Below the pieces are notes generated by a model. The model made no database searches, had not been told where the DNA came from, and worked only from the letters and a program-made list of their open reading frames with translations. Shown here in pieces: positions 35,805-51,881 of a stretch of DNA of 64,000 nt (positions are counted from its first letter, which is position 1; each line of letters starts with the position of its first letter). The position numbers and the translations under genes are program-made. This DNA is from an uncultured Bacilli bacterium (lineage in GTDB: Bacteria; Bacillota_I; Bacilli_A; RF39; UBA660): contig CANQQV010000002.1 of assembly GCA_947626095.1 (NCBI GenBank), positions 62,001 to 126,000 on the forward strand, written 5' to 3'.

Positions 35805-38324
35805 TTATATCTTTCTTTTGTTTTCAATAAAAGTAACAATTCCTAGAGAAATAAAGCCGATTATTGATAAGCCAAGAGCCAACTCTTTTAATGGAGCCTT
35901 ATATTCAATAGTAATATGGTGATGACCTTTATTGATTTTAAAGCCGGTAAAGGTTTCATTTACTTTTTCAATTTTTACTTTTTGATTATCGACTTTGATA
36001 TTAAAGCCAATATCGTATGGAACACTCATGGTAAAGTAACCATTTTCACTGACGTCAATATCACCATTAATATAGTCTCCTTTAGTGTTTTTTTTATCAA
36101 TAACTAAAGGATTAACTTTAGTAGATATTTTTTCAAGATTAGCATAATCTAAATAGAATAATTCAAAATCAGAAATATTATAAGTTCCTTCAGAAAAATA
36201 AATATTTAAATTTTCTTGATTATCAGAAGCTAAGATATAGTCAAAGGTTGTATTGCCATTATAGTATTTCCATTTTTTATTGGTTAATTTATTTTTTACA
36301 CGATTAATGGTAATGGCTAAATCTTTTTCCTCATCGCCCCTATTCATTTTAAAACGAATAAATAGGATCTTATTTTTATATTCTTCTGGTAATTCATATT
36401 TTAACTTTAAGTTATCATCCGATTTAATAGTATATGAACCATCTTTTTCTTTAGTAATTTTTTTATTAGTAAATATTTGATCTAAATCTAATTCCATAGG
36501 ATGAACGTTGGAAATATAGTCATTAGATGTTTTAGCATCAGCAACGATAACATTTAATAAAGCTTCTTGTTTTTCTTCATCACTTAGTTTATTAAAATCA
36601 TCGTAACTCATAATATTGGAAGTAGCATAAGCAAATGGTAAGACTTGTTCATTTTTATAAACATAAATACCATCTTTTTCATTAATTTTTTCGTAACCGA
36701 CTAAACCTGGACCATCAGATACATAGTATTTATTACCACTAAACATTAAATATAAAACATTTGGAGAAGTAACAGTTAAAGCACGATTACGTGAAGGAAT
36801 GTTATTCATAGCTACATCATAGTAAAAACTATTATATTGTTGATTAGAGATAGATGAATAAATCGTCGAATTATAGTAATTAATATTATCATAGATTTTA
36901 TTAGGTGTTTCAGTACGAATAATATTATTTGCGATACGATACATATCTTGGTCTTCGTTGGTTATGGTACCAATTAAGTTTTTAACAATTTTTTCATTAT
37001 GTCTTGTTGTATAACGTAGTTCTAAAGTATCATAATGGTTGTAAATATAACAAGTTGTAAATAGAAGTAGAAATAATGGTAAAGTAAGAATTATTTTTTT
37101 ATTGAATTTATGATAAAGAAGAACTAAAACTAATAAGATGATAATTTGAGAAAAATAAGCAACTAGATATGATTTCTTAATAAGAATGATTATAGAAATA
37201 ATAATTAAGACGGGAATAATGTGATGATATTTAACTTTCTTATTTATTATATCGTTAATAAAGTCAGCTAAGACTAAAATGTATAATGGTAAGAAAGGAA
37301 TTAAAGACTTAGCATCAGTATACATTGTACCATTTAAAAGATAATTAAAAAGATTAAAAAGAACTAATAAAGATAAAATTAAAGCCAGAATCTTTTTATT
37401 ACGATCTTTAGTAAATAAATTAATAAGCGCAGGAATAATTAGCGCAGTTAAACCTAGACCATATGAATTAAAGATAAGATTTTTTAAAGAAAGACTAGGT
37501 AAAAATAATTTACCAAGTGTAATATTAGTATTTGAAGCAGCACGATTATGAATAATTGTTGCCATAGTTGGAACAGTAATAATTGCTGACATGAAAATAG
37601 CGATAATAATTGGGCCTAAAACTTTAAAGAAAGTTTTAAGGAATGTTTTAAAGGTAACTTTTTTCATTTGTTTTAAATAACGATAAAAGCCATAAATTAG
37701 TAAACAGACAATACCACCAACACTAAAGTAATAGCTAGTCATTATCATTAAAAAGGTCGAAATAGTAAGTAACCAACTACGCTTTTTATCAAAGATTTGA
37801 TCAATACCAAATAAACCTAAGATAAGAAATGGCATATAGTTGATAAACATAATATGACGATGTGATTGGAAGGATATCGAAGATGAGAAAATAAAAGCTA
37901 AACTGGCGATAAAGCAGACTTCACTACTATAGTTTTTCTTTTTTAAAAATAAATAAATTAGATTAGCACTAATAATAACAATAATAATAGTAGATATCAT
38001 AATATATTTGATCATAGATAATTTAGGAAATAAATATGATACTAGGATGATAGGACTTAATAAACCATAATATGAGAAGTTATAGATATTTTGGCCACTA
38101 CCGATATTTAACGCTAAATCAGGGAATAGATCATGAGTATCATAGAATAAAGTTCTTATATATTCGGCAATTGAAACATGCTCAGAATACCAATCTAAAG
38201 TAGAACCATAGTAACATGTTTTACCACAAAGAGCTAAGACAAAAACAATAAAAGAGATAGATATAATAGCCATGTAAATAAAATCTTTGGTGGTTAGTTT
38301 TTTGGCTTTAGTTTTCTTTTTCAT
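35805..38324 (-). CDS. YfhO-family polytopic membrane protein (glycosyltransferase-like)
   Basis: 839 residues. About 12 membrane segments in the first 430 residues and one at the C terminus, with a large extracytoplasmic region between. The loop YGSTLDWYSEHVSIAEY, containing Asp and Glu, and NIGSGQNIYNFSYYGLLSP fit the PF09586 YfhO family, which in Bacillus and Listeria glycosylates lipoteichoic acid or adds lipid-linked sugars. The start overlaps the upstream PIG-L stop by one base (TAATG), so the two are translationally coupled, which suggests joint work on surface glycans. Confidence 0.85.
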   Translation of the reverse strand: MKKKTKAKKLTTKDFIYMAIISISFIVFVLALCGKTCYYGSTLDWYSEHVSIAEYIRTLFYDTHDLFPDLALNIGSGQNIYNFSYYGLLSPIILVSYLFPKLSMIKYIMISTIIIVIISANLIYLFLKKKNYSSEVCFIASLAFIFSSSISFQSHRHIMFINYMPFLILGLFGIDQIFDKKRSWLLTISTFLMIMTSYYFSVGGIVCLLIYGFYRYLKQMKKVTFKTFLKTFFKVLGPIIIAIFMSAIITVPTMATIIHNRAASNTNITLGKLFLPSLSLKNLIFNSYGLGLTALIIPALINLFTKDRNKKILALILSLLVLFNLFNYLLNGTMYTDAKSLIPFLPLYILVLADFINDIINKKVKYHHIIPVLIIISIIILIKKSYLVAYFSQIIILLVLVLLYHKFNKKIILTLPLFLLLFTTCYIYNHYDTLELRYTTRHNEKIVKNLIGTITNEDQDMYRIANNIIRTETPNKIYDNINYYNSTIYSSISNQQYNSFYYDVAMNNIPSRNRALTVTSPNVLYLMFSGNKYYVSDGPGLVGYEKINEKDGIYVYKNEQVLPFAYATSNIMSYDDFNKLSDEEKQEALLNVIVADAKTSNDYISNVHPMELDLDQIFTNKKITKEKDGSYTIKSDDNLKLKYELPEEYKNKILFIRFKMNRGDEEKDLAITINRVKNKLTNKKWKYYNGNTTFDYILASDNQENLNIYFSEGTYNISDFELFYLDYANLEKISTKVNPLVIDKKNTKGDYINGDIDVSENGYFTMSVPYDIGFNIKVDNQKVKIEKVNETFTGFKINKGHHHITIEYKAPLKELALGLSIIGFISLGIVTFIENKRKI

Positions 38325-39652
38325 TATGATTCACTCCATTCGCTATATTTTACCCAATTTTCATATGGTAACATGTGTCCCCAGACATCGTTTATCATAT
38401 ATTGACTAACATATATTTCATCAACTATTTTTTGCTTTTTCTTTAAATTTTTACTACTTACGCGTTTTAATTCTTTTTGATGTTTTTTGATGTCTTTTTT
38501 ATTTAGATAATAGTGACCAAAATAGTATAATTTGTCTTTATCTTCGACTAAGTTAGTCATCATTGTACTGGTCATTTTATGATGAATATGACCATATTCA
38601 CCATCAGGATTATGCGTAATAATAGTATCCCAATCTTTTAAAGAGATTATACTTTGTAAGTCGTTTTGAATATATTCACGCGAAGAATCCCAGTTATCTT
38701 TTTGACCATTAGTTAAATCAGGATAACCTAACATAATATATTGATCGTTAGTTTCTTTCATAGTACGTTCAAATTCTTTAACACGAACTGGATTAACACC
38801 ACAAGTTACACAAACAACTAAATAATTATCATTCATTAAATGAGAACCACCCCAAATAAGTTCATCATCGGGATGAGCAACGACCATTAATTTATTAGTT
38901 TTACTTAAGTCTAATTTGGAATAATCATCAGGGACATGAAAACTAGGTTTGCCCCAATCATAATATGAAACCCAATCTTCATAAGGAAACATTTGATCAA
39001 AGTAAGTTTGGATAAATGATTGACTTGGATAATAACTAATTAGTTTTTTCTTTTGACTTAGAAGACTATCATTTATAGGAGTCATTTCATTAAGATGATT
39101 AACAATATTGTTTTTACTATAATAATGACCAAAATAATATAATTTCTTTTTATCAGGAACAATACTAGTAGTAATTTGGCTAGTCATTTGATGGTGAATA
39201 TGACCATATTCGCCATCGGGATTATGCGTAACAATTGTCTGCCAATCTTTTAATTTAATAATAGCATCTAAATCTTTAGTTATATCATCTTTAACGGTAT
39301 CCCAATTATCACGTTCACCATTAGTTTTATCAGGATAACCTAACATAATATATTTATCGTTAGTCGAATGCATGATATGATTAAATTCGTTAACACGAGT
39401 TTTATTAGAACCACAAGTTATACAGACAACTAAATAATTATCTTTAATTAAGTGAGCTCCACCCCAAAGAGTCTCATCATCGGGATGAGCTACAATCATT
39501 AAATTATCAATGTCTTTTAAATCTATTTTCGTAAAGTCTTTATCTATTTTATATAAATTATGAAAATATAAATATATTCCCCCATTAATAATAATTAGAC
39601 AAATTAATAAGATTATTAATAAAATGTAATATTTTTTGATGAATTTTTTCAT
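38324..39652 (-). CDS. Tandem PIG-L deacetylase
   Basis: 442 residues with an N-terminal membrane anchor (YILLIILLICLIIINGGIYLY) and two copies of the PIG-L/LmbE fold, near 40-215 and 250-430. Each has VAHPDDE (zinc and base) and NPDGEYGHIHH (second His pair): copy 1 IVAHPDDETLWGGAHL, copy 2 VVAHPDDELIWGGSHL. Such enzymes remove acetyl from N-acetylglucosamine-type sugars. The two halves are closely alike, pointing to a recent internal duplication. The ATG at 39652 is chosen because the longer reading to 39688 runs into the leader. Promoter and YfhO coupling indicate a two-gene glycan operon outside the cell. Confidence 0.9.
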   Translation of the reverse strand: MKKFIKKYYILLIILLICLIIINGGIYLYFHNLYKIDKDFTKIDLKDIDNLMIVAHPDDETLWGGAHLIKDNYLVVCITCGSNKTRVNEFNHIMHSTNDKYIMLGYPDKTNGERDNWDTVKDDITKDLDAIIKLKDWQTIVTHNPDGEYGHIHHQMTSQITTSIVPDKKKLYYFGHYYSKNNIVNHLNEMTPINDSLLSQKKKLISYYPSQSFIQTYFDQMFPYEDWVSYYDWGKPSFHVPDDYSKLDLSKTNKLMVVAHPDDELIWGGSHLMNDNYLVVCVTCGVNPVRVKEFERTMKETNDQYIMLGYPDLTNGQKDNWDSSREYIQNDLQSIISLKDWDTIITHNPDGEYGHIHHKMTSTMMTNLVEDKDKLYYFGHYYLNKKDIKKHQKELKRVSSKNLKKKQKIVDEIYVSQYMINDVWGHMLPYENWVKYSEWSES

Positions 39653-39697
39653 ACTCTTGCCTTCTTGTATACATATAAATTCTTGCACTCAAGTCAA

Positions 39698-39850: not shown

Positions 39851-41200
39851 ATGAAAGCAGAAAGTTTAGAAGAAACTTTAAGAAAATTATTAGAAGAAAA
39901 GGATTATGCGAAGATTAAAAATCTTTTAAGTGATGAAAATGAATATGATATCGCTTCTTTAATAGAAGATTTACCTAGTGATGAGTTAATTAGGGTTTTT
40001 AGATTATTAAATAAAGATTTAGCTGTTGATGTTTTTGTTAATTTGGATGATGAAGTACAAAAAGAATTAATTGCTTCTTTAACAAAGAAAGAGTCTAAAG
40101 AGATTATTGAGAATATGTTTACTGATGATGCGGCGGACTTATTTGATGAAATGCCAGCAATGCTAGTTACTTCTCTTTTAAGTAATGTCGATAAAGAAAC
40201 AAGAAATGATATTAATAAATTACTTAAATATCCAGATAATAGTGCTGGTTCTTTAATGGCTATTGAATATATTCATTTGAAGAAGGGATTAACAATTAAA
40301 GAATCAATTGCGCGAATTAGAAAACAAGCCGAAGATTTTGTATCATATGATTCTTGTTTTGTAACTGATGATAAACGTAAATTACTTGGTAAGGTATCAG
40401 TTAAAGATTTACTTGTTAATGATCCAGAAACTTTAATTGATGATGTTATGGAAGAATGTGAACATAAAATTAGTACTTTAATGGATCAAGAAGAAGTTGT
40501 TAGTATTTTCCAAGATTATGACTATAGTACTTTACCGGTTGTTGATTTAGAAGATCGATTAGTAGGAATTATTACCATTGATGATGTTGTTGATATTATG
40601 GAAGAAGAAGCAACAGAAGATATGGAGAAAATGGCAGCTATTGTACCAACAGAAAAATCTTATGATAAAACAAGTATATGGGAAACTTTTAAAGCGAGAA
40701 TACCTTGGTTATTACTTTTGATGATATCAGCCACATTTACAGGTAAAATAATTCAAAACTTTGAAGCCCAGTTAGCAACTTGTGCAATATTAACCGCTTT
40801 TATTCCAATGCTAATGGATACAGGTGGTAATGCTGGTGGTCAAGCAAGTGTTAGTATTATAAGAGCTTTATCATTAAATGATATTGAGTTTAAAGATATT
40901 TTAAAAGTTGTGCTTAAAGAATCAGGCGTGGCAATATTATGTGCAATAGTTTTAGGAATATGTAATTTTGTTAAAATATTATTAATTGATAAAGTAACAA
41001 TACCTATTGCGGCTTGTGTTTGTATTACCTTAGTTATTACGGTAATTATTGCGAAGATAATTGGTTGTACTCTACCAATGTTTGCCAAGAAAATTGGTTT
41101 TGATCCAGCAGTTATGGCTAGTCCATTTATTACAACTTTAGTTGATGCTTGTTCCCTACTCGTTTATTTTAAAGTAGCAACATTAATTTTAGGAATTTAA
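39851..41200 (+). CDS. mgtE: Magnesium transporter MgtE
   Basis: 449 residues. Cytoplasmic N domain of helices (SLIEDLPSDELIRVFRLL), two CBS domains (about 130-260, YDSCFVTDDKRKLLGKVSVKDLL and YSTLPVVDLEDRLVGIITIDDV), a plug helix and five membrane segments (about 280-449) with TGGNAGGQASVSIIRAL and PFITTLVDACSLLVYF. The conserved Asp of the pore is DAC. A homodimeric Mg2+ channel that closes when cytoplasmic Mg2+ binds the CBS region. AAAAGGAG ribosome site. Confidence 0.96.
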   Translation: MKAESLEETLRKLLEEKDYAKIKNLLSDENEYDIASLIEDLPSDELIRVFRLLNKDLAVDVFVNLDDEVQKELIASLTKKESKEIIENMFTDDAADLFDEMPAMLVTSLLSNVDKETRNDINKLLKYPDNSAGSLMAIEYIHLKKGLTIKESIARIRKQAEDFVSYDSCFVTDDKRKLLGKVSVKDLLVNDPETLIDDVMEECEHKISTLMDQEEVVSIFQDYDYSTLPVVDLEDRLVGIITIDDVVDIMEEEATEDMEKMAAIVPTEKSYDKTSIWETFKARIPWLLLLMISATFTGKIIQNFEAQLATCAILTAFIPMLMDTGGNAGGQASVSIIRALSLNDIEFKDILKVVLKESGVAILCAIVLGICNFVKILLIDKVTIPIAACVCITLVITVIIAKIIGCTLPMFAKKIGFDPAVMASPFITTLVDACSLLVYFKVATLILGI

Positions 41201-41226: not shown

Positions 41227-42189
41227 CTATGGATAAATAATTATCTTTTCATTACATAATGAGCTTTCATTTATATCTAAAGGATGATTAGCTAAAGGAC
41301 TAGTATTAACTAGGACTTGTTTAGATTTAATCTCTTTAATAAAAGTATGAGCATGATCTTTATCATCCGTAAAGATAGCTGTACTATATAAGGAACCATT
41401 ATTATTTATCATATAAATAGCTTCATCAAGATTATTAACAGGAATAGCATCGGCTAAATCAAGATTAAGATCTTCTTGATAATAGATAGTTATATGGGGA
41501 TTTAACTTAATAAATTCTTGGATAAAAGCAATGTTCTTTAAAGATTCAATATATAAATCAAAGTTGGCATAACCACTAGTTATTACTTTATTATGAGTTT
41601 GTTTTAACACATTGTTTTGTAATTCACGATTACCAATACCAATGACTAAATCATAGCTAGTATAATATTTTAATACTTGATAAATATCATCAGCAATATA
41701 ACTATTGATTTGATTAGCATCTAGTTTATTATGATTTAACACTTGTTTAATAAGTTCAATTAGATAGTTATTAGTACCATACATATAACCATTGTAACTA
41801 ATAATTAAGGAATTATTAACTAAAAGATTACGAATGATTAACTCTAATAAAGTATAAGGATTACCATCAAAGATAAGGCAGATGGTACCAAGACTTTCGA
41901 TTTCTTTACCATAGTAATATTTTTTTTCATCATTTTTTAAATTATCTATTACTTTACCATAGGTTAAATCTTCTTTTAAACAATTATCAATAATATTGTC
42001 AAAGACAGATAATTCAACTTTAAAGCCATTATTATTTTTAAGATCTATTTTGTTAGCTTCTTCTAAAACAGCAAATGTTTTATCGATTGTTTCTTTTATT
42101 TCATTTAAAATGTCTTTAATATTCAGATGATTGTCTTTAGTGGCATTTTGCGTTTGTAAGATAATACTTTCGATATTATTTTGCTCCAT
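41227..42189 (-). CDS. Degenerate aldehyde-dehydrogenase-superfamily protein (ProA-like)
   Basis: 320 residues, about 100 fewer than glutamate-5-semialdehyde dehydrogenase. The N-terminal helices (EANKIDLKNNN), the nucleotide-domain-like stretch (ESLGTICLIFDGNPYTLLELIIRNLL) and the C-terminal STAIFTDDKDHAHTFIKEIKSKQVLVN look like the ALDH fold. The segment that would carry the catalytic Cys is shortened and no Cys is in that position. No other ProA genes are nearby. Start overlaps the end of the giant repeat protein gene by 14 bases, so the two are made together. Probably a non-catalytic binding or scaffold protein, but the call rests on fold resemblance. Confidence 0.6.
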   Translation of the reverse strand: MEQNNIESIILQTQNATKDNHLNIKDILNEIKETIDKTFAVLEEANKIDLKNNNGFKVELSVFDNIIDNCLKEDLTYGKVIDNLKNDEKKYYYGKEIESLGTICLIFDGNPYTLLELIIRNLLVNNSLIISYNGYMYGTNNYLIELIKQVLNHNKLDANQINSYIADDIYQVLKYYTSYDLVIGIGNRELQNNVLKQTHNKVITSGYANFDLYIESLKNIAFIQEFIKLNPHITIYYQEDLNLDLADAIPVNNLDEAIYMINNNGSLYSTAIFTDDKDHAHTFIKEIKSKQVLVNTSPLANHPLDINESSLCNEKIIIYP

Positions 42190-45100
42190 GAGAAATACCC
42201 CTTTCTTTAGTAAAATCAGTATTTAGCGAATCTATATCATTATATAAAGAAGTAACGTCGGTTAACATTCTTGATGTATCTATTTTTTTGCCTTTATTTA
42301 GTAATTGTAAGAAAGCTAATTTCATTTGGAGATATACTTCTTTAGAAACATCTTTAACTTCATTACTTAAATTTACTTGAGTATTAGCTAATAAATCTAA
42401 GATATTAATATTGGTTGGAGTTTCTTCATAAATAATGGCAAAGTTCGGAGTGATAATTAATCTTAAGCCTTCTTCGCGAACTCCATAATTATAAGCTAGT
42501 TCGCTAAAGGCGTTTTCTTCATCTTCAATATTACAATTTAATTGATAATTTTCGCGTTTAGATGAAGCTATCTCAAGATGTTTTAAAGTTTTGATAGCAG
42601 TATAATCGATATTGTCTTTATTATATTCTTCATATTCATCATAGTGAATACTTAGAGTTTCAGAATCAGTTGGTTTTATATGACCTTCTTTTTCGGATAG
42701 AATATATTGCATACGAGAATCAGTTAAATATAGTTCTTTCTTTAATGGAACAGGTGCTTCATACTTAGGTGGTAATTTTGGTTGAGCTTGATCTTTGATA
42801 GCATTTTTATTAATAGCAGTTGCTATATCATTATGACCTAAACCAACGGTTATTTTGGAAAGTTTTAAACTATTATATTGTTCTTCCGTTATTTTACCCT
42901 CTTCTAGTAATTGGCGATAAACTTGTTCATCAGCGGCGATTAATTCTTCAGCAGCTTTAACATAGATATCAAAAATAATTTGCGCAAATTGTTCTTTTGT
43001 TAAATGTTTTTCTTGAATAGCACGTTCGAAAGCTTTGTCAGGAACTTCGATGTTATCAAAACATAATAAGTTTTGATTACGCCATACCCAGCTTTGAGCT
43101 GCGATTTTACCATGTTCATCTCTAATAACAAATAAACGGCCATGTTTACTTGTCATACTATGTTCCATATCTAGTTCAGCCCAGTTATCAATTTCTTGAC
43201 AGCAATCAGATAAAGTACCAGCAGCTATTGGGAAGGCATCCATTAAACGAGGTATTTCATAAGTATATTCATCTTTGCTTGATGATATTCTTGGAATACT
43301 TGAGAAAGTTCTTAATTTACCATAATTAAAGATTTGTTGAAGAATATCAAATTCTGCTTGAGAATAACCAGCAATTGCTGAGACACGAGATAAATCTTCA
43401 TTACCAGTTTCAACATTAGAATATTTATTACTTTGAACATAATCAACAGCTAGTTTTAAAGTTAGGACACGATTACTATTATCGATTTTAATACGATCAA
43501 ATTGTTTTTGAATAGCAGCAACATAAGTCATATATTCGGGATTATCAAGAATTTCATCTAAATTTTTAAGTAAGAATTCACGAAAATCACGGTCATATTT
43601 TAATGTAAAACTACCAAATAAACTATGAGCTATTTGCGGTGTTATCATTCCTCTGACGTTATTGGCTTCCATGAAATTCCTAACCCATTTCGCCGTTTCA
43701 GGATATTGCTGTTCATTTAGAATTAAATGATATTGGTTATTTTCATTAGCTCTAAATATAAAAGGTAGGACTGGTTGATTTTCGGCGTTACTAAAGCCTT
43801 CTTTTTGCATTACTTCACGAAGTTTTTTATACTCTGGTAAACCGATTAACATATTGTTTCTATTTTCTTCAGGATTAGTAAATGATTTGAGAATAGTTTC
43901 TTCCATTTGGAAAATAGTATTTTGGTCAGTTGAATTAAGATTACGAGGAAGATTACTAATTATTGATATTAATCTTTTTTCGGCTTGAGAATCACCTTCA
44001 AAAATACCAAATGAGTAAGCTAGTTTAATTAAAGCATCGACACCTTCAGGAGTATTTCGATAGTTACCACTACGCATTAGTAGGGACCAACTCTTACCAT
44101 GAGCTAAGAACTTATCAGCATCAGCAAATGGTAAAGTTTCCATAACTACATAATCTGGGATAAATTTCTTACCTGTTTTTAAATACCATTTTTCTAATAA
44201 ATCGAGTTTATTATGACTAATCATGTAATCAACATCTTTTGGCTTTTGTAAGCCTAATTTAAGGAATTGTTGTTCCCCACCAATATGATCAATAAATTCA
44301 ATAAGCTCTTTTTCGCGTATACGTGGAGTATTGTAATAGAATGGTAAAATACTTTTATTTTGTAAGAAAGGTAACCATTCAGGATGAGCTTTTAAAACAG
44401 TAAATGAAATTGAATAGTTAACATTTTTATAATAATATTTTTTTAAATCATCAGGGGCATTAGAAGCTAAGAACATATGAGGTATTTCTTGTTTAATAAA
44501 TTGAGGGACATCTTCGTCATATGTTATTTGACCATTTTTAATAAGGTTTATAAGTTGATCTTTAATATTAAGGATTGTAGCTTGATCTAAAGTTTTAAGA
44601 TCTTTAAGACTATCTAAAACTTTAGAATCTTCAGCAATATAGTTACCAAAGGTTGTAATCAATTGGTAAGCGATATCATCAGGAATAAAGTTTAAATAGT
44701 TATTAGTGATTCTTACACCTTTAAAAGCAAGAGAAAATTTAATATGCTGTAAATAAGTATAGTATTCAGGGTAATGATAAAAGTCACTGTAGTTTAAAGT
44801 TCTTGCATAGTATTTATCTTTTAATTCTTGAGGAGCATTAGATGAAAGGAAAATATCAGGATATTTTTGTTTAAATGATTCAGGGAAATCTTCCGCAAAT
44901 GAGAAGGCATTGTTAACAATTACATTATATAATCCTTGTTCAATACTAGATTCGATTCCCTCTTTACTAGTATCTTTTAAGTCAACATTTAGTTTTTTAA
45001 ATAAATTAATAACAGAAGAATATGGAAGTAAGAAATCTAAATAGGATTTTAAACCATAATTCTTAATATATATCTCTGTAAGATTGAAGTTGCTGTCAGG

Positions 45101-47335
45101 TAAGTTAGCAGAGGATTCACTATCGATAGCTGTAATGTTTTGGGGAATATCACGAATATTGAAAGCTGTTTTACCTTCAAGGTATGGAAGCCATTCTGGG
45201 TGGTTATTGATATTTTTTAGAGTTAAACTACCGGCATAAAAATAACTTTTTAAGTCACTTGGAGCATCAGAGCTTAAGAATAATTCAGGGTATAGTTGTT
45301 TAAAGCTGGCTGGTAGATTTTCATCGTAAATAGAATCGAAAACACTCCAACTTTGTTTTAATTTTTCTATTAATGTATCATGAATCTTTTCTGTTATAAG
45401 ATTATCTAATTCAGCAAGATTTAAATCATTAAAAGAATTAATATTTATTGAAAGGCCATTTAATAAATTTCCGTATGACAAAATATATTCAATCATTTTA
45501 TCTTTGGCACCGATAGAATATAAATAATCAGTTAAGTTCATATACTTGTCAGGTGTTGAAATTACTGGGCAGGCATTGGCAAATATATTGCGTAAATCAA
45601 CATTTTTTAAATAATTTTGCCATTCAGGATTCATTCTCATTTGTTGAAATGATAAATTATTGGCATAGTAAAGGTTTTTTAAATCTTCTGGAGCATCAGA
45701 ACTAAGGAATATTTCAGGATGTTCTTTTTTAAATAAATCAGGGACAGTTTCAATAGCTTTAACTTTATTATTATAATATTGAGTGCGAATAGATGTAATA
45801 AATAAGTTAGTTAAACGGTTAAGAAATTCTTCATATGTTGCTGGTGGTTCCTCAACATTATAAGTATAATAACGAGCAAAAACATTTAAGTTATCACCTA
45901 ATGGACCATATTCTTTTGCAAAACGGATAAGATTTTTAAGACCTAGAGCTTCTATTAGACGTTTATCACTAACGTTTAGAAAGGTTTCAGAAGTTATTAA
46001 AGGGATATATTCATCGCTAAGAATGTTAGTAGACTCTAAATATATGCCAAGTTTTTGAAGCCATTCAGGGTATGATGCACTATCAAAGACAGAGGGATCA
46101 TTAGTTTTAACAAAAGTTAAATTGTCGTTATTATAGTAACGTTGAACGATTGTTAAATAAAAAAGATCTTTTATGTTATAGATTTCGTTATTTTCACGAG
46201 CACTATTTATCTTTTTATTTAATGAGCTGTAAAAGTCGAAATCTTGGCCAATATCAAAAGGTAAAAAATTATTTGTAAAAAGAAATGGCGCTTCATTAAT
46301 GATGGCGAGAAAATTTTCAGCACCAATTAAATTTTTAATATCTTGTAATGAATGATTTAAATGATTAAGGAAGTTGCCTTTACCAAAAACATTATAGTGA
46401 TTGACATAGTCGGCCAACGTTAATTGGTTATGAGTAAATCTTTCATAAACATCTTCAGGTAATTCGTCTTTAGAAATAAACAAATTAGGATATTTATTTC
46501 TAAAACGATTACTAAAATTATAGATATCAAGATAAGATGTACTAGTTACTAATTGAGCAATATATTCATCTACCCTATCCATCATTAAAGGGATTGGCTC
46601 TATTTTTAGAATTTCCATTATTTGTTCTTTATTAATTTCTTGACCGAAATTACTATATTTTATATTATTAATAACAATTGATAGTTCGTTAATATACTCA
46701 GGATTAATTTTATATACTTTGACGGATTTAGTTAAACCTAGATAATCAGAAATGTTGGTTAAAAGACGATTGTCATTGCTTTGATAATTTAAGATACTAT
46801 TACGTTTTTTGGCAGATAATTCATTTAGTTGTTCATCACTTAAATTAAGTAAGTCACTGATTTCTAGGGTTGAAGTAACATATTTTTTTTCAAATTCGCG
46901 ATCAAATAAAGAAGATAAGAAAAGATCAGGATGTTCTTTAACAATTTGTTCATCAAAGTTATCGCGAAGTAAGTTGGAATAGGCATATTCAACATTACGA
47001 ATATTGCAACCTTTAAGGTTAACTCCGTAAGGAGACTCAATACTATCAATTACTCTAAAGTCAATATTAGCATGAGTAGCTGATAAATCTAAAGGACTAT
47101 CAAGAGAAACAAGGGAAACGTTTTCCCATTCTTCAAATGGAATATCACTTAAATCATAACTTATTAATTCTTGACAAATTTTTAAGACATCGGCACCATA
47201 TTCTCTGATAAATTGTTCGTTATCACTTTCATATAATTCTTTGTGTTCTTCAGAACTAATTTCAAATTGTTTAATAGCTGCAAAATACTGTTCTTTTAAC
47301 TCTCTAAATTTTGCTAAAGTTAGTTTTTCTCGCAT
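42176..47335 (-). CDS. Giant cytoplasmic repeat protein of unknown function
   Basis: 1719 residues, no signal peptide or membrane segment. The first two thirds consist of repeats of about 127-147 residues, each opening with a P-x-x-F/L-K-x-x-x-P-E/D-L/I-F-L-S-S-D/N-A-P-x-D/E-L-K pattern and ending HPEWLPYL; clear copies begin near residues 135, 285, 540, 685, 825 and 955. A separate C-terminal region (about 1300-1560) has a Cys-Cys pair in GTLSDCCQEIDNWAELDMEH followed by GRLFVIRDEHGKIAAQSWVWRN, vaguely like PcfJ or GNAT-type cores. Has its own promoter. Function unknown; it looks like a large scaffold with a catalytic-like end. Confidence 0.8.
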   Translation of the reverse strand: MREKLTLAKFRELKEQYFAAIKQFEISSEEHKELYESDNEQFIREYGADVLKICQELISYDLSDIPFEEWENVSLVSLDSPLDLSATHANIDFRVIDSIESPYGVNLKGCNIRNVEYAYSNLLRDNFDEQIVKEHPDLFLSSLFDREFEKKYVTSTLEISDLLNLSDEQLNELSAKKRNSILNYQSNDNRLLTNISDYLGLTKSVKVYKINPEYINELSIVINNIKYSNFGQEINKEQIMEILKIEPIPLMMDRVDEYIAQLVTSTSYLDIYNFSNRFRNKYPNLFISKDELPEDVYERFTHNQLTLADYVNHYNVFGKGNFLNHLNHSLQDIKNLIGAENFLAIINEAPFLFTNNFLPFDIGQDFDFYSSLNKKINSARENNEIYNIKDLFYLTIVQRYYNNDNLTFVKTNDPSVFDSASYPEWLQKLGIYLESTNILSDEYIPLITSETFLNVSDKRLIEALGLKNLIRFAKEYGPLGDNLNVFARYYTYNVEEPPATYEEFLNRLTNLFITSIRTQYYNNKVKAIETVPDLFKKEHPEIFLSSDAPEDLKNLYYANNLSFQQMRMNPEWQNYLKNVDLRNIFANACPVISTPDKYMNLTDYLYSIGAKDKMIEYILSYGNLLNGLSININSFNDLNLAELDNLITEKIHDTLIEKLKQSWSVFDSIYDENLPASFKQLYPELFLSSDAPSDLKSYFYAGSLTLKNINNHPEWLPYLEGKTAFNIRDIPQNITAIDSESSANLPDSNFNLTEIYIKNYGLKSYLDFLLPYSSVINLFKKLNVDLKDTSKEGIESSIEQGLYNVIVNNAFSFAEDFPESFKQKYPDIFLSSNAPQELKDKYYARTLNYSDFYHYPEYYTYLQHIKFSLAFKGVRITNNYLNFIPDDIAYQLITTFGNYIAEDSKVLDSLKDLKTLDQATILNIKDQLINLIKNGQITYDEDVPQFIKQEIPHMFLASNAPDDLKKYYYKNVNYSISFTVLKAHPEWLPFLQNKSILPFYYNTPRIREKELIEFIDHIGGEQQFLKLGLQKPKDVDYMISHNKLDLLEKWYLKTGKKFIPDYVVMETLPFADADKFLAHGKSWSLLMRSGNYRNTPEGVDALIKLAYSFGIFEGDSQAEKRLISIISNLPRNLNSTDQNTIFQMEETILKSFTNPEENRNNMLIGLPEYKKLREVMQKEGFSNAENQPVLPFIFRANENNQYHLILNEQQYPETAKWVRNFMEANNVRGMITPQIAHSLFGSFTLKYDRDFREFLLKNLDEILDNPEYMTYVAAIQKQFDRIKIDNSNRVLTLKLAVDYVQSNKYSNVETGNEDLSRVSAIAGYSQAEFDILQQIFNYGKLRTFSSIPRISSSKDEYTYEIPRLMDAFPIAAGTLSDCCQEIDNWAELDMEHSMTSKHGRLFVIRDEHGKIAAQSWVWRNQNLLCFDNIEVPDKAFERAIQEKHLTKEQFAQIIFDIYVKAAEELIAADEQVYRQLLEEGKITEEQYNSLKLSKITVGLGHNDIATAINKNAIKDQAQPKLPPKYEAPVPLKKELYLTDSRMQYILSEKEGHIKPTDSETLSIHYDEYEEYNKDNIDYTAIKTLKHLEIASSKRENYQLNCNIEDEENAFSELAYNYGVREEGLRLIITPNFAIIYEETPTNINILDLLANTQVNLSNEVKDVSKEVYLQMKLAFLQLLNKGKKIDTSRMLTDVTSLYNDIDSLNTDFTKERGISHGAK

Positions 47336-47363
47336 AATGAATACCTCTTCTACTCTATAATTA

Positions 47364-47392
47364 ATTATAACATAAATAAAATAATATCTAAA
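47364..47392 (-). promoter_or_regulatory. Promoter of the giant repeat protein operon
   Basis: Minus strand: TTTAGA (47387-47392), 17-base spacer, TATAAT (47364-47369) preceded by TATGT, an extended -10 of the Gram-positive TRTGn type. Confidence 0.75.
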
Positions 47393-47404
47393 AATTAAAT
47401 AAGA

Positions 47405-47435
47405 TATTAAAAAAACTAGTAATTAACTAGTTTTT
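47405..47435 (-). terminator. Terminator of the transglutaminase-like gene
   Basis: 10-bp perfect stem AAAAACTAGT / ACTAGTTTTT (47411-47420, 47426-47435), loop of 5, T-rich tail on the minus strand; it overlaps the stop codon. Confidence 0.8.
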
Positions 47436-49584
47436 AGTGACCAAGTTTTGGTGAATCCTGATTGGGAGTACCAAAGGCTAATTTACCAGCATATCCCATT
47501 GAATATAGAGGTTCTGGTAAAGATTTTTGTTTTGTAATACCTAAAGATTGTAAAAATAATTGATTAATAAATTGGACTTGATATGGAGTTCTAAATAAGG
47601 AAACAAGAATATCTTGATTATAGCTATAATGATGTAAATCATCAATATTTCTAAATAATCCAACGGTATCTATAACTCCCTTATCACGACATTCCTTAAT
47701 TAATTCTTGACAAATTATATTATATAAAGTTTCAGCTGATTTATTAAAAGCATAATTCATTCCAGGACGTTGATCAGAGTAATAATATTTAATTCCAGCT
47801 GATGAAAGCCATAAGTTAGCAAATAAAGCTTTGGCAAAAAGTTTTTTATCAGTTACTATGTGTCCAGTTTTGATATCAGCTATTTTGTATTTAGAAGTAT
47901 CAGTTTCTAGAGGGTCATCTGAATCAACATAAATCTCATATTTAGATGCTAAGTCTTTTAATTCAGCAAAAGTAGGGATATTAATTCTATTCTTTTTATT
48001 TTCTAGAACTTCAAGTTCAACTCGTTTATTTGTACTAAAGTAGTCAATTAAGTCAGGATCAACTACACGATAGCCATTTGCATCATAATAACCAATATAG
48101 CCCCCAGATTCACCTACTTTACGATCGAGTCTTTCACGACTTAAATATTCATCTACCATATCTTGACGATTGTCATTAAAGAAGTTTCTTTCAGTATAAA
48201 TAGTATTTCTTTTTAATACTTCATTGCTACCTTCTTTAACAAGTTCAAAAATGTCATAATGCATTACATCAACGCCACAAATTTTATATGGTTTATTTAA
48301 CATTCTTTGAGCAATAAAGACACTGCCATCACTTCTTTTATATCTTCTAGTTGGATAAATAAACATCTTTTGTTTTTCTTGAGGCTTATCAATTTCTTTG
48401 ACACTAGTAACTAAATCTAGATTTTCATTTAAATCTTCATTAATAGTGTTTTTACTTGCTTTACCAATATAATAAGTTCTTTGAGCAAGTGAGTCTGCAA
48501 TATTTTCTGGAGAAAATAAAATGTTAACAAGTGTATTTTCGAAATTTAAAGGAATATGTTCATTAAATCTTTGACGATTAATTAAATCAGTAACATTAGT
48601 TTCACTATATAGGATTAATGGTAATTCTCTCTTTCCATCTTTAGTTATATTTACGTAATAGTAACGATAATAATTTGTACCATCGAATGTATTATTGCCA
48701 ATTTGCGCTACAATAAATTTGGTACCATCTTTTCGTTTTCCATAATAGGTAGTATTTTTATAGTTTCTTGATCTATTGGCGCCAGTTTGACTAAGAAGCA
48801 TTTTAATTAGTTGAGGATCAAGTTGAGATAAGGTATGCTCATAATCTTGAGTTTTTTCGCCTGGAGCAGGATGATGGCAACGGCTAAATTTTTTAACGTC
48901 TTGACAAAGCCAGTCAAAACTATTATATTTTCCAGATCTAAAAGTTGTATTGTCCCATGTTAAATCAATTGGATATTTTTTACCGTCAATAGTTACAATA
49001 TTCCAAGCATGACCTGATGTTTCTTGACTTTTAACTCCTCCTCTAGCATATTCACATTCAATATTATGGCGATCCATAAATTCTTTAAAAATAACAGCAT
49101 AACCAGCACAAACAGTTTGTCTAGTAATTAACCCTCTTAAACTTCTAATTTCACTAGAAGCTTTTTGTTCATATTTAGGATCATACATGATTCCAGTCTT
49201 TAATCTATCATATATGTAGATTATTTTTTGAATGTCTGACCAATTTTTATTAATTCCTGACTCGATTTTTTCCATTTGCTCTAATATTTTTATAGTTTCA
49301 TTTCTGGTATAAATAACAGAATTATAATAATAATCTTCTAATGATTCGGTTTTAAAACTGCATCCTTTATATCTTTCAAGTCTATCCTTATCATAGCTAC
49401 CAGCAATTCTAATTGCGACATTTGGGTTTAACTGTCTTATCATAGAAGAAGTTATTCCTTTAGTATTTTGAATTTCAACTAAAATAGGCGAATTGGGGTA
49501 TTGACGACAAACATTATTAATACGGTTAATATCTAGGGGTTCATTTAAAGCAAATGTAATTTTATACAGATAATCATATTTCAT
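47434..49584 (-). CDS. Transglutaminase-like (papain-fold) protein
   Basis: 716 residues, no signal peptide. A transglutaminase-like domain (about 110-215) has all three catalytic residues: Cys in TVCAGYAVIFKEFM (near 156), His in SGHAWNIVTIDG (near 193) and Asp in YPIDLTWD (near 205). The remaining 500 residues are beta-rich with repeated short motifs (TYYGKRKDGTKFIVAQ, PTRRYKRSDGSVFIAQ), seemingly two related segments. Such domains act as peptidases or cross-linkers in the cytoplasm or as toxins. The start (49584) overlaps the LRR gene end by 11 bases; GGTGAG precedes it. Confidence 0.8.
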   Translation of the reverse strand: MKYDYLYKITFALNEPLDINRINNVCRQYPNSPILVEIQNTKGITSSMIRQLNPNVAIRIAGSYDKDRLERYKGCSFKTESLEDYYYNSVIYTRNETIKILEQMEKIESGINKNWSDIQKIIYIYDRLKTGIMYDPKYEQKASSEIRSLRGLITRQTVCAGYAVIFKEFMDRHNIECEYARGGVKSQETSGHAWNIVTIDGKKYPIDLTWDNTTFRSGKYNSFDWLCQDVKKFSRCHHPAPGEKTQDYEHTLSQLDPQLIKMLLSQTGANRSRNYKNTTYYGKRKDGTKFIVAQIGNNTFDGTNYYRYYYVNITKDGKRELPLILYSETNVTDLINRQRFNEHIPLNFENTLVNILFSPENIADSLAQRTYYIGKASKNTINEDLNENLDLVTSVKEIDKPQEKQKMFIYPTRRYKRSDGSVFIAQRMLNKPYKICGVDVMHYDIFELVKEGSNEVLKRNTIYTERNFFNDNRQDMVDEYLSRERLDRKVGESGGYIGYYDANGYRVVDPDLIDYFSTNKRVELEVLENKKNRINIPTFAELKDLASKYEIYVDSDDPLETDTSKYKIADIKTGHIVTDKKLFAKALFANLWLSSAGIKYYYSDQRPGMNYAFNKSAETLYNIICQELIKECRDKGVIDTVGLFRNIDDLHHYSYNQDILVSLFRTPYQVQFINQLFLQSLGITKQKSLPEPLYSMGYAGKLAFGTPNQDSPKLGH

Positions 49585-50275
49585 TATACTCACCAGCGAA
49601 TTCTACCATATTTTCGTTTAAAACTAAAATATCTTTTTTTAGCAAATTATTAAATAATTCTTTGTTATTGTTATATTGTTTTTCATCGATACTTAATCTT
49701 TTTAATTTTAATAAACTATTTAAGAAATTAAAATCATGAATATTAGTGTTATCGATATATAATTCTTCTAATGATTTAATATTTATATCATCGCAATTGG
49801 TAATGTTAGAATAAGATAATTGTAGATATTTTAAATTGGTTAAAGAGTTGATTATAGCAATAGGTATTTCACCATTAATAATCGTTAGTTTTTCAAGATT
49901 TTTAAAAAGTTTTAAAAAAGAATAATTATTGATGCGACAATTAACAAGGGATAATGAATTTAATTTCAAAGATGCAATTAAGTCAGCATTTTCAAAATCA
50001 CAGTTTTCAAAAGTAAAATCATTTAAAGAGTTTAATTTTAAAAAAATATTATAATTATCATTAAAAATATGACCATTTCTAATAGTGATAGTTGTTAAGT
50101 TAGGAAACTTTAATAATTCTTCTAAAAAATTAAGATCGCTTTCGTTATTATAATCAATTACTACTTCAGTTATTTTAGCTAGTTCTTCTTTGGTAAAACT
50201 ATTATCTAGTTTATCTAGTTTAAACATTGCATAATCTGCTAAGTTAGAATTTTCAATACTAATTAAATCTTCCAT
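49574..50275 (-). CDS. Leucine-rich-repeat protein
   Basis: 233 residues, soluble, with about seven irregular LRR units of 20-24 residues (LNSLSLVNCRINNYSFLKLFKNLEKLTIING, LTNLKYLQLSYSNITNCDDI, LEELYIDNTNIHDFNFL). Asn-rich, as expected in this genome. No signal peptide, so a cytoplasmic protein-binding module. Its end overlaps the transglutaminase-like gene by 11 bases; the two are coupled. Confidence 0.8.
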   Translation of the reverse strand: MEDLISIENSNLADYAMFKLDKLDNSFTKEELAKITEVVIDYNNESDLNFLEELLKFPNLTTITIRNGHIFNDNYNIFLKLNSLNDFTFENCDFENADLIASLKLNSLSLVNCRINNYSFLKLFKNLEKLTIINGEIPIAIINSLTNLKYLQLSYSNITNCDDINIKSLEELYIDNTNIHDFNFLNSLLKLKRLSIDEKQYNNNKELFNNLLKKDILVLNENMVEFAGEYNEI

Positions 50276-50375: not shown

Positions 50376-51881
50376 CTATTTAATTAGTGAATTACCATTT
50401 ATTTCGACTGGTATAGGTAGTTCTAGTAAACTTAACATGGTTGGAGCAATATCAGATAGTTTACCATCACTTTTTAGTTCAAGACCTTTTTTGGTAACAA
50501 TAAACGGAACTTTATTAGTAGTATGAGTTGTATATGGTGAACCATCTTCATTAATCATAACATCACAGTTACCATGATCAGCAGTAATAATTAGAGTTCC
50601 TTCTTTTTCTTCTACTTTCGCATATAATCTTTTTAAACAAGTATCTAAGAATTCAACAGCTTTAACAGCAGCATCATAAACGCCAGTATGACCTACCATA
50701 TCACCATTAGCATAGTTTAAGATAACAACATCTAAATAGTCTTTATCTAGTTCAGCTAATAGTTTATCAGTTACTTCTTCCGCACTCATTTCTGGTTTTA
50801 AATCATAAGTAGCGACTTTTGGTGAATTAACTAAAATACGTTTTGAATTTTTAAGTTCAATTTCTTTACCACCATCAAAGAAGTAAGTAACATGGGCATA
50901 CTTTTCGGTTTCCGCAATACGTAATTGATTTAAACCTAAAGAGTCTATATAAGCACCAAATGGGTTATCTAAATTTTGATAAGCGAAAGCAGTTAAACCA
51001 TGAACTGATTCATTTATTGCCATCATTGATACTAGTTTAATATTATTAAATTTAGTAACAGGCATTTCATTAAAGTCAGGATTAGTTAAAGCTGTACACA
51101 TTTCACGTAGACGATCAGGGCGATAGTTAAAGACAATAATACCATCGTTTTCTTCAATCTTACCATCATTTAAAACAGTAGGAATTATAAATTCATCAGT
51201 TACATCTTTAGCATAAGAATTAGTAAATAATTCTTCAGGCGTATTAGCATGTTCGCCAATACCATAGACAATAGCATCATAAGCAATCTTTAAGCGATCA
51301 TAATTGTTATCACGATCCATACCATAATAACGACCACCAATTGTAATTATTTTACCAATGTTATCAGCTTTAATTTTATCTTCTAATTTTTTTACATAAT
51401 CTTTACCACTATGGATATCAGTATCTCTTCCATCAGTAAATAAATGGAAATATAGTTCTTTAATACCATTTTCTTTACACATATCAATTACAGCATTTAA
51501 GTGTCTAGTATGAGAGTGAATTCCCCCATCACTAATTAAACCCATAACGTGTAATTTAGAATTGTTTTCTTTGGTATGATTAATAACTTTTAAGATATTT
51601 TCATTAGAAAAGAATTCTTTAGTTTCAATAGCGTTATTAATTAGTTCTAATGGTTGGTAGACGATTCTTCCAGCACCAATATTCATGTGACCAACTTCAC
51701 TATTACCCATTTGGCCTTCTGGTAAACCAACTAATTTACCAGAAGCTTCTAAAATAGTATGAGGATAGTTATTCCATAAATAATCAAAGGTTTCTTTATG
51801 CGCATTTTTAAATGCATTACCTTTAGTTTCTTCTCTTAGACCACAACCATCTAAGATACATAAGACAAGAGGTTTTTTCAT
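50376..51881 (-). CDS. gpmI: Cofactor-independent phosphoglycerate mutase
   Basis: 501 residues, standard length. LCILDGCGLREETKGNAF, LVGLPEGQMGNSEVGHMNIGAGR with catalytic Ser in GNSEVGH, LFTDGRDTDIHSG, GRYYGMDRDNNYDR, and metal ligands in YANGDMVGHTG and ITADHGNCDVM and TTHTTNKVP. It needs two Mn2+ ions to convert 3- to 2-phosphoglycerate. It starts 14 bases after a CobW metallochaperone gene, hinting at metal supply to this enzyme. Confidence 0.98.
   Translation of the reverse strand: MKKPLVLCILDGCGLREETKGNAFKNAHKETFDYLWNNYPHTILEASGKLVGLPEGQMGNSEVGHMNIGAGRIVYQPLELINNAIETKEFFSNENILKVINHTKENNSKLHVMGLISDGGIHSHTRHLNAVIDMCKENGIKELYFHLFTDGRDTDIHSGKDYVKKLEDKIKADNIGKIITIGGRYYGMDRDNNYDRLKIAYDAIVYGIGEHANTPEELFTNSYAKDVTDEFIIPTVLNDGKIEENDGIIVFNYRPDRLREMCTALTNPDFNEMPVTKFNNIKLVSMMAINESVHGLTAFAYQNLDNPFGAYIDSLGLNQLRIAETEKYAHVTYFFDGGKEIELKNSKRILVNSPKVATYDLKPEMSAEEVTDKLLAELDKDYLDVVILNYANGDMVGHTGVYDAAVKAVEFLDTCLKRLYAKVEEKEGTLIITADHGNCDVMINEDGSPYTTHTTNKVPFIVTKKGLELKSDGKLSDIAPTMLSLLELPIPVEINGNSLIK

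Follow-up and report, generated by a model that had tools for sequence, protein, structure and literature searches.

Large multidomain proteins with GNAT and nucleotidyltransferase domains among others have been described as polyvalent proteins, and the protein-modifying domains that this work lists for conflict systems include both GNATs and Pol-beta nucleotidyltransferases (PMC5512222). Toxins exported by the type VIIb secretion system (T7SSb) are accompanied by small partner genes (PMC9600955 and PMC10653861), while NLR-like or STAND sensors combine a repeat arm with a swappable effector. Here, we describe a locus that resembles each of these to some extent in a 64,000-nucleotide stretch of an uncultured Bacilli bacterium of the RF39 lineage (assembly GCA_947626095.1, contig CANQQV010000002.1, positions 62,001 to 126,000), which we call the window. 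It encodes a 1719-residue repeat protein, P0001, directly followed by a 320-residue protein related to aldehyde dehydrogenases (ALDHs). It is possible, though we would not go as far as calling it probable, that the two genes form a mobile conflict cassette made of a variable recognition arm, a conserved effector, and a pseudoenzyme partner. Such a cassette would differ from polyvalent proteins in that the window locus lies outside a phage or conjugative element and forms a two-gene unit with a pseudoenzyme, and in that a repeat arm does not figure in the available part of their description (PMC5512222). It would likewise differ from NLR-like and STAND sensors because P0001 has no NTPase domain by Pfam. 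The two genes and the parts of P0001 are located as follows, in window coordinates:

42176..47335, minus strand: P0001, a 1719-residue repeat and effector-like protein
46790..46963, minus strand: degenerate repeat core, residues 125-182
46355..46519, minus strand: degenerate repeat core, residues 273-327
45572..45751, minus strand: clear repeat core, residues 529-588
45143..45322, minus strand: clear repeat core with HPEWLPYL, residues 672-731
44714..44893, minus strand: clear repeat core, residues 815-874
44327..44515, minus strand: clear repeat core, residues 941-1003
43364..44473, minus strand: conserved linker, residues 955-1324, its start overlapping the last repeat core
42791..43363, minus strand: effector-like C-terminal core, residues 1325-1515
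42179..42790, minus strand: C-terminal tail, residues 1516-1719
41227..42189, minus strand: predicted ALDH-like pseudoenzyme, 320 residues, ProA-related

The reading frame of P0001 is single and unbroken, and contig G003:C20 (CANPXB010000020.1, uncultured Bacilli metagenome-assembled genome [MAG] "Lapin-004") encodes an orthologue of near-equal length with 62-63% identity from end to end, which shows that the gene is real. P0001 had no match over cut-off in Pfam, NCBIfam, PHROGs, the PADLOC models, or PDB sequences, and PADLOC, which models known anti-phage defense systems, returned nothing for it even at E <= 1; we attribute weak lines for PG_binding_5, gutA, and SHOCT in Pfam and NCBIfam to chance. 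Profiles compared with PDB sequences gave no convincing match either (best E values of 0.46 for the C-terminal region, 0.92 for its core, 0.12 for the repeat, and 0.32 for an alternative tail introduced below; none for the long protein), and the repeat matched no Pfam model of known repeat families (TPR, LRR, ankyrin, HEAT, etc.) over cut-off. The first-pass annotation, made from the sequence without database searches, had proposed an undescribed family, and this stands for the libraries searched: None of them has a family to which the core, the repeats, or the pair could be assigned. The parts nevertheless appear to be of known kinds, i.e., a repeat sensor, a GNAT- or nucleotidyltransferase-type effector, and an ALDH pseudoenzyme. 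Nothing relevant on RF39 together with leucine-rich repeats (LRRs) was found in the open-licence literature, which is weak evidence.

The repeat array of P0001 is statistically solid and comprises four clear and two degenerate cores. Each clear core scored 55.5-69.7 bits when left out and compared to a hidden Markov model of the remaining three, as opposed to top scores of 5.9-12.8 bits among shuffled controls (457-477 scored out of 500 made each). The degenerate cores at residues 125-182 and 273-327 reached 20.7 and 17.3 bits, respectively, which was matched by none of 878 and 950 scored shuffles (1000 made per copy), and a suspected extra copy near residue 415 stayed within chance (21 of 955 shuffles as high). 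The repeats that the first-pass annotation had noticed are thus real and do align to each other, with a core consensus of P-x-S-F-K-x-E-x-P-x-x-F-L-S-S-D-A-P-E-D-L-K-x-x-Y-Y-...-H-P-E-W-L-x-Y-L. Their anchors are spaced by 149, 255, 143, 143, and 126 residues, so that the originally proposed unit of 127-147 residues describes the array only in part. The exact HPEWLPYL string thought to end the units is found once, and each of the other clear units has a variant of it. The suggestion of an own promoter does not rise above chance: Both strands of 47250-47650 together hold 5 promoter-like sites as compared to 3.0 (standard deviation 1.7) in shuffled sequence, although one site is well placed (47392-47364, with TG ahead of TATAAT).

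Proteins of the same long build, i.e., these repeats followed by the C-terminal core, form a 13-row alignment (A4; 1206-1874 residues). Once the orthologue in G003 and the second copy of one duplicated cluster (L044) are set aside, ten relatives from other genera are left for regional comparison. The repeat part (residues 1-954) is the most variable with 13-26% identity to these relatives, followed by the C-terminal tail (25-37%), which is kept in long relatives, and the linker (33-43%, and 76% to the orthologue), while the core is the best conserved part with 47-62%. The core shows a motif pattern of CC..HS..GRxFV..AQSWVWRN..CFDNIE, and the separate C-terminal region that had been set apart by DCCQEI and GKIAAQSWVWRN is indeed present and conserved among relatives. 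P1348, G1373, C1379, and R1419 are invariant in 36 of 36 C-terminal regions, whereas position 1430 is occupied by E in 28 of them and by D in 6, and position 1392 by H in 26 and by Y in 9. This set covers the loci on hand minus short duplicates of longer loci, matches without a fetched locus, and two loci without a matching open reading frame (ORF; L032 and L034); 25 of its rows, together with 4 phage rows, make up the core alignment A5.

The fold of the core may be GNAT-like. Both of its structure models, which are of low confidence, show the order helix-strand-strand-strand-helix-strand-helix, and the best 50 of 471 and the best 50 of 578 Foldseek matches obtained with them (E <= 10) were either titled acetyltransferases or proteins that we take to be GNAT-fold, namely LF-transferase, FemX, OrfE, Sba18, BH1408, acetoin utilization protein, and GNA1. 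Several results weigh against this assignment. GNATs carry an acetyl-CoA loop motif, Q/RxxGxG/A, after strand 4, which was found in only 1 of 36 cores and there probably by chance; no GNAT model was among the Pfam matches; and hhalign gave 0.1% for the core against seven GNATs of its own genome, in what is a small and weak test. The differences from GNATs are the missing loop in 35 of 36 cores, the lack of profile similarity, and the core's own invariant Cys and Arg.

Of 193 genomes sampled from the window's taxonomic family, 45 (in 41 of 148 genera) matched the profile of the C-terminal region (A1), 22 had the repeats by profile, and 12 had the ALDH-like gene, a patchy spread that we count in favor of a conflict system. 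Among 392 genomes of the phylum, the core profile A5 matched 5, all within this taxonomic family. The other relatives found for the core come from cyanophages, namely Microcystis phage MaMV-DC (ORF68L, 697 residues), MaMV-DH01, and six IMG/VR contigs, and the phage and family cores align with an hhalign probability of 98.7% (E 2e-16). Scans of viral contigs revealed only this Microcystis-phage type and no long relative of P0001, and neither the phage core nor the window's C-terminal region was matched in a plasmid search.

Within the family, the core also ends shorter proteins of about 640-1180 residues with other N-termini as well as proteins with BspA-type LRRs such as L103 (1310 residues; LRR_5 E 5.8e-97, core 59.7 bits). 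Two overlapping genes at L100:3981-10597 (1173 and 1041 residues) are both core-terminated (71.0 and 68.1 bits), and BspA-type LRRs were found in the 1173-residue protein, the one tested. Conversely, ten repeat proteins lack the core and end in another tail with an invariant GST.R..N...DGDFD and a later Asp, a complete nucleotidyltransferase motif. The count covers repeat-only proteins of >900 residues and excludes L095, which is truncated at the edge of its contig, as well as the short loci L076-L085. Among the ten, L086 can be aligned to P0001 across 934 columns (25.8%, E 1.8e-51). On the basis of the motif, this tail may be a nucleotidyltransferase, with weak support from matches to the PADLOC Cyclase model for oligonucleotide cyclases in both proteins scanned (E 0.0015 for L088 and 0.036 for L094) and to Pfam SMODS in one of four (0.027, under cut-off); PDB sequences gave no convincing match to it. 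The same core behind several N-termini and the same repeats with another tail show that recognition-type and effector-type parts have been exchanged. One core protein is preceded at 21 bp by an AAA/STAND-like protein with an ankyrin-like stretch and weak matches to IetA and mad8 (L052:3465-5051).

Further variants of these proteins were noted in passing. Five tandem ORFs of 388-424 residues at L096:2151-8237 (G123:C6) each carry one repeat copy near the C-terminus and so form an array of single-repeat proteins. The window's own genome has a second core protein that is short and divergent (888 residues; G000:C4:40383-41156, L098:3844-6510) and lies beside a thioredoxin-like gene with a WCGPC motif. 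Three short core proteins also have another common downstream partner of 220-246 residues (L099:5292-6032, L004:289-951, and L038:4418-5107), two of which share VIDIS.KDR.EVLA.LYN; the one tested matched neither Pfam nor PADLOC.

The gene downstream of P0001 overlaps it by 14 bases (42176-42189), as first annotated, and its product is, as judged from its sequence, a ProA relative without the catalytic-cysteine segment, i.e., a pseudoenzyme. It matches the NCBIfam ProA model with 7.3e-17 and 61.2 bits (cut-off 289), and its profile (A14) matches the gamma-glutamyl phosphate reductase 8zok in the PDB (E 3.8e-19). This match is split into two blocks (query residues 22-230 against 21-245 and 244-299 against 316-370), between which about 70 ProA residues face about 14 of the ALDH-like protein. 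The best block of the profile match to Drosophila melanogaster P5CS (7f5t) stops at residue 581 and the catalytic cysteine of this enzyme is C598 (PMC11061531), so that the skipped stretch presumably holds the catalytic cysteine; no conserved Cys exists in 12 aligned ALDH-like rows. Homology to ProA and the ALDH superfamily therefore extends over both halves of the protein, which differs by the reduced stretch, the missing Cys, and a shortened C-terminus. No PADLOC model matched it at E <= 0.1.

The two genes are tightly linked in the long type: For 12 of the 13 A4 proteins, the next gene downstream is an ALDH-like gene in the same orientation, with a frame shortened to 195 residues at L048, and the exception is the upstream one of the two copies in the single L044 cluster. 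Between the two core proteins of that cluster, we noted a 615-residue protein with a HENGH (HExxH-type) motif and no Pfam match (L044:10854-12701). The ALDH-like profile alone gave 13 matches in the 12 genomes, 12 of which stand beside a core protein; these include a divergent pair without detected repeats (L151; 1358 and 295 residues), the genes of which overlap by one base. The 13th match (G084) starts 108 bases away from the end of its contig, does not cover the first 60 positions of the profile, and follows a stretch unlike a core protein. By eye, this frame (L152:3-935) continues from an RsmH-type methyltransferase-like stretch, be it by fusion or assembly error, and a serine recombinase-like gene lies nearby. 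No ALDH-like gene was found at 20 loci whose core proteins are short or of the LRR type, three of which have the other partner mentioned above, nor in the nine neighborhoods L086-L094 of proteins with the nucleotidyltransferase-like tail (one or more of them truncated where the contig stops), while the tenth such protein (L042) adjoins a pair of core and ALDH-like genes. Pairwise distances of P0001-type and ALDH-like proteins correlate with r 0.87 across 12 pairs, leaving out the second L044 copy that has no partner of its own, and none of 5000 permutations was as high; this shows common inheritance, not contact. The dead-enzyme partner postulated in the first-pass annotation, which had advised looking at neighbors in related genomes, is hence borne out, with the partnership resting on conserved linkage.

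The genomic site of the pair is variable, as seen from its flanks and further cargo:

39851..41200, plus strand: MgtE, flank
50376..51881, minus strand: presumed phosphoglycerate mutase, flank
47434..49593, minus strand: transglutaminase-like 719-residue protein, further cargo
49574..50275, minus strand: LRR-like 233-residue protein, further cargo

The converging flanks are widespread in the genus: MgtE (Pfam MgtE, 3e-36) was found in 13 of 16 genomes at E <= 1e-50, and the other gene, whose product we take from its sequence to be phosphoglycerate mutase, in 16 of 16 (15 with a match of at least 59% identity). Ten of these 16 genomes have both flanks on one contig, and the site between them is empty in two, holds the pair in two, and holds other cargo in six. 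The empty sites measure 112 bp in G006, whose phosphoglycerate mutase shares 98% identity with that of the window, and 25 bp in G004. The 9.2 kb gap of the window contains the pair together with the transglutaminase-like gene (Pfam DUF553 1.2e-4, 22 bits, cut-off 20.5) and the LRR-like gene (Pfam LRR_4 1.1e-5, 25.9 bits, cut-off 27), both of which are missing at the site in G003 and G006, and the 6.2 kb gap of G003 contains the pair alone. Other cargo includes a PD-(D/E)XK transposase-like ORF in G014 (24.5 bits, cut-off 27.4), B-repeat proteins in G005 and G015, a 454-residue protein in G002 with a start like that of G005, two large proteins in G010, and a 1609-residue protein in G007 (Pfam was run on five of these). 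Empty, pair, and other-cargo states between the same flanks mark the locus as an accessory hotspot, and the first-pass expectation that a gene of this size should have an important job finds no support as regards housekeeping, given an insertion that is absent from G006 and G004 and has an ALDH-like gene in only 12 of 193 genomes. A prophage origin was rejected since the flanks are present in most genomes of the genus and the flanking run is common to G003. The window genome and G003 are MAGs or draft assemblies, the former with an estimated contamination of 7.9%, despite which the pair is seen at the same site in G003 and the empty state in G006.

Variable repeats, conserved and exchanged effectors, a pseudoenzyme, a hotspot, phage relatives, and the AAA/ankyrin neighbor of L052 are together best accommodated by a conflict system. 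In such a cassette, P0001 would be cytoplasmic, and its fast-evolving, probably helical repeat arm would recognize a component of an invader or rival or a damaged component of the cell itself. The conserved linker would join this arm to the C-terminal effector, probably GNAT-like, which might act catalytically on protein or RNA once released. The ALDH-like pseudoenzyme would bind P0001 and hold or license the effector, perhaps via a retained nucleotide pocket. Of the initial idea of a scaffold or effector with an enzyme-like domain, the enzyme-like C-terminal domain is supported and P0001 may be a scaffold, but domain shuffling favors the conflict cassette. In a more ambitious version, which we regard as doubtful, uncultured gut Bacilli would possess an immune- or conflict-type system not described so far, whose repeat scaffold bears an interchangeable effector, either a nucleotidyltransferase or a new GNAT-fold offshoot without the usual CoA loop (perhaps a transferase using aminoacyl-tRNA or another acyl donor), with this new effector checked by a pseudo-dehydrogenase related to a proline-biosynthesis enzyme and its domain also present in cyanobacterial phages. 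This raises the concrete question of whether an immune or toxin protein can have a dead metabolic enzyme as its safety catch; to our knowledge, little work has addressed such roles of pseudoenzymes in conflicts between bacteria and their phages or rivals, and we found no open-licence paper linking pseudoenzymes, aldehyde dehydrogenase, and anti-phage function (weak evidence). The profiles of the C-terminal core, the repeat, and the pseudoenzyme also make very large genes of this uncultured gut Bacilli family searchable.

Alternatively, P0001 could be an antibacterial toxin exported by a type VII system, with the repeats or other N-termini for export and delivery, the core as toxin, and the downstream ALDH-like protein as immunity protein. 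This is unlikely, though far from implausible, given the small partner genes of known exported toxins and a 1874-residue relative in G164 that is preceded by three small ORFs of 98, 101, and 89 residues (L050:7442-8359; one weak WXG100 match of 18.6 bits, E 0.0023, cut-off 27.3) and thus shares with LXG-type toxin operons three small genes, a large protein, and a downstream partner. However, this layout is not seen at the window locus, where the gene directly upstream of P0001 is not a small WXG-like one but encodes the transglutaminase-like protein, and P0001 lacks any strongly hydrophobic stretch (hydropathy over 19 residues peaks at 1.16). EssC scored over cut-off in 11 of 14 genomes examined, the window's own included, compared to 1 of 14 control genomes, but fell below it in 3 of 12 carriers (G114, G147, and G221; MAGs may be incomplete) and is present in both empty-site genomes, so that it does not discriminate. 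Moreover, polymorphic toxins generally show the reverse of the conserved C-terminus and variable N-terminus found here, and no ALDH-like gene adjoins the short core proteins at the loci examined.

P0001 could also serve ordinary metabolism as a cytoplasmic scaffold or regulator whose ALDH-like partner senses a ligand such as NADP(H) or glutamyl-phosphate, a reading that comes close to the first-pass view and seems improbable to us. Both genes are intact and constrained between window and G003, with NG86 dN/dS of.272/.775 (0.35) for P0001 and.152/.639 (0.24) for the ALDH-like gene (NG86 takes no account of AT bias), and the window's own genome has no ProA over cut-off, its only matches being the ALDH-like gene itself, while 12 of 14 control genomes have one. 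Yet both are also fast-evolving, with dN far above that of MgtE (.032/.543) and phosphoglycerate mutase (.009/.362), and the confinement of the ALDH-like gene to few genomes, the variable insertion site, and the absence of genes matching either flank from ten neighborhoods in other genera all speak against ordinary metabolism. It is very improbable that P0001 is an effector directed against a eukaryotic host or a protist of the gut: LRR, ankyrin, and transglutaminase-like proteins do accompany the family, but P0001 has no Pfam domain and none of the export features tested, and the relatives found outside the taxonomic family are phage proteins.

Beyond the MgtE flank, the window encodes at 38324-39688 a protein with two tandem PIG-L-type stretches.

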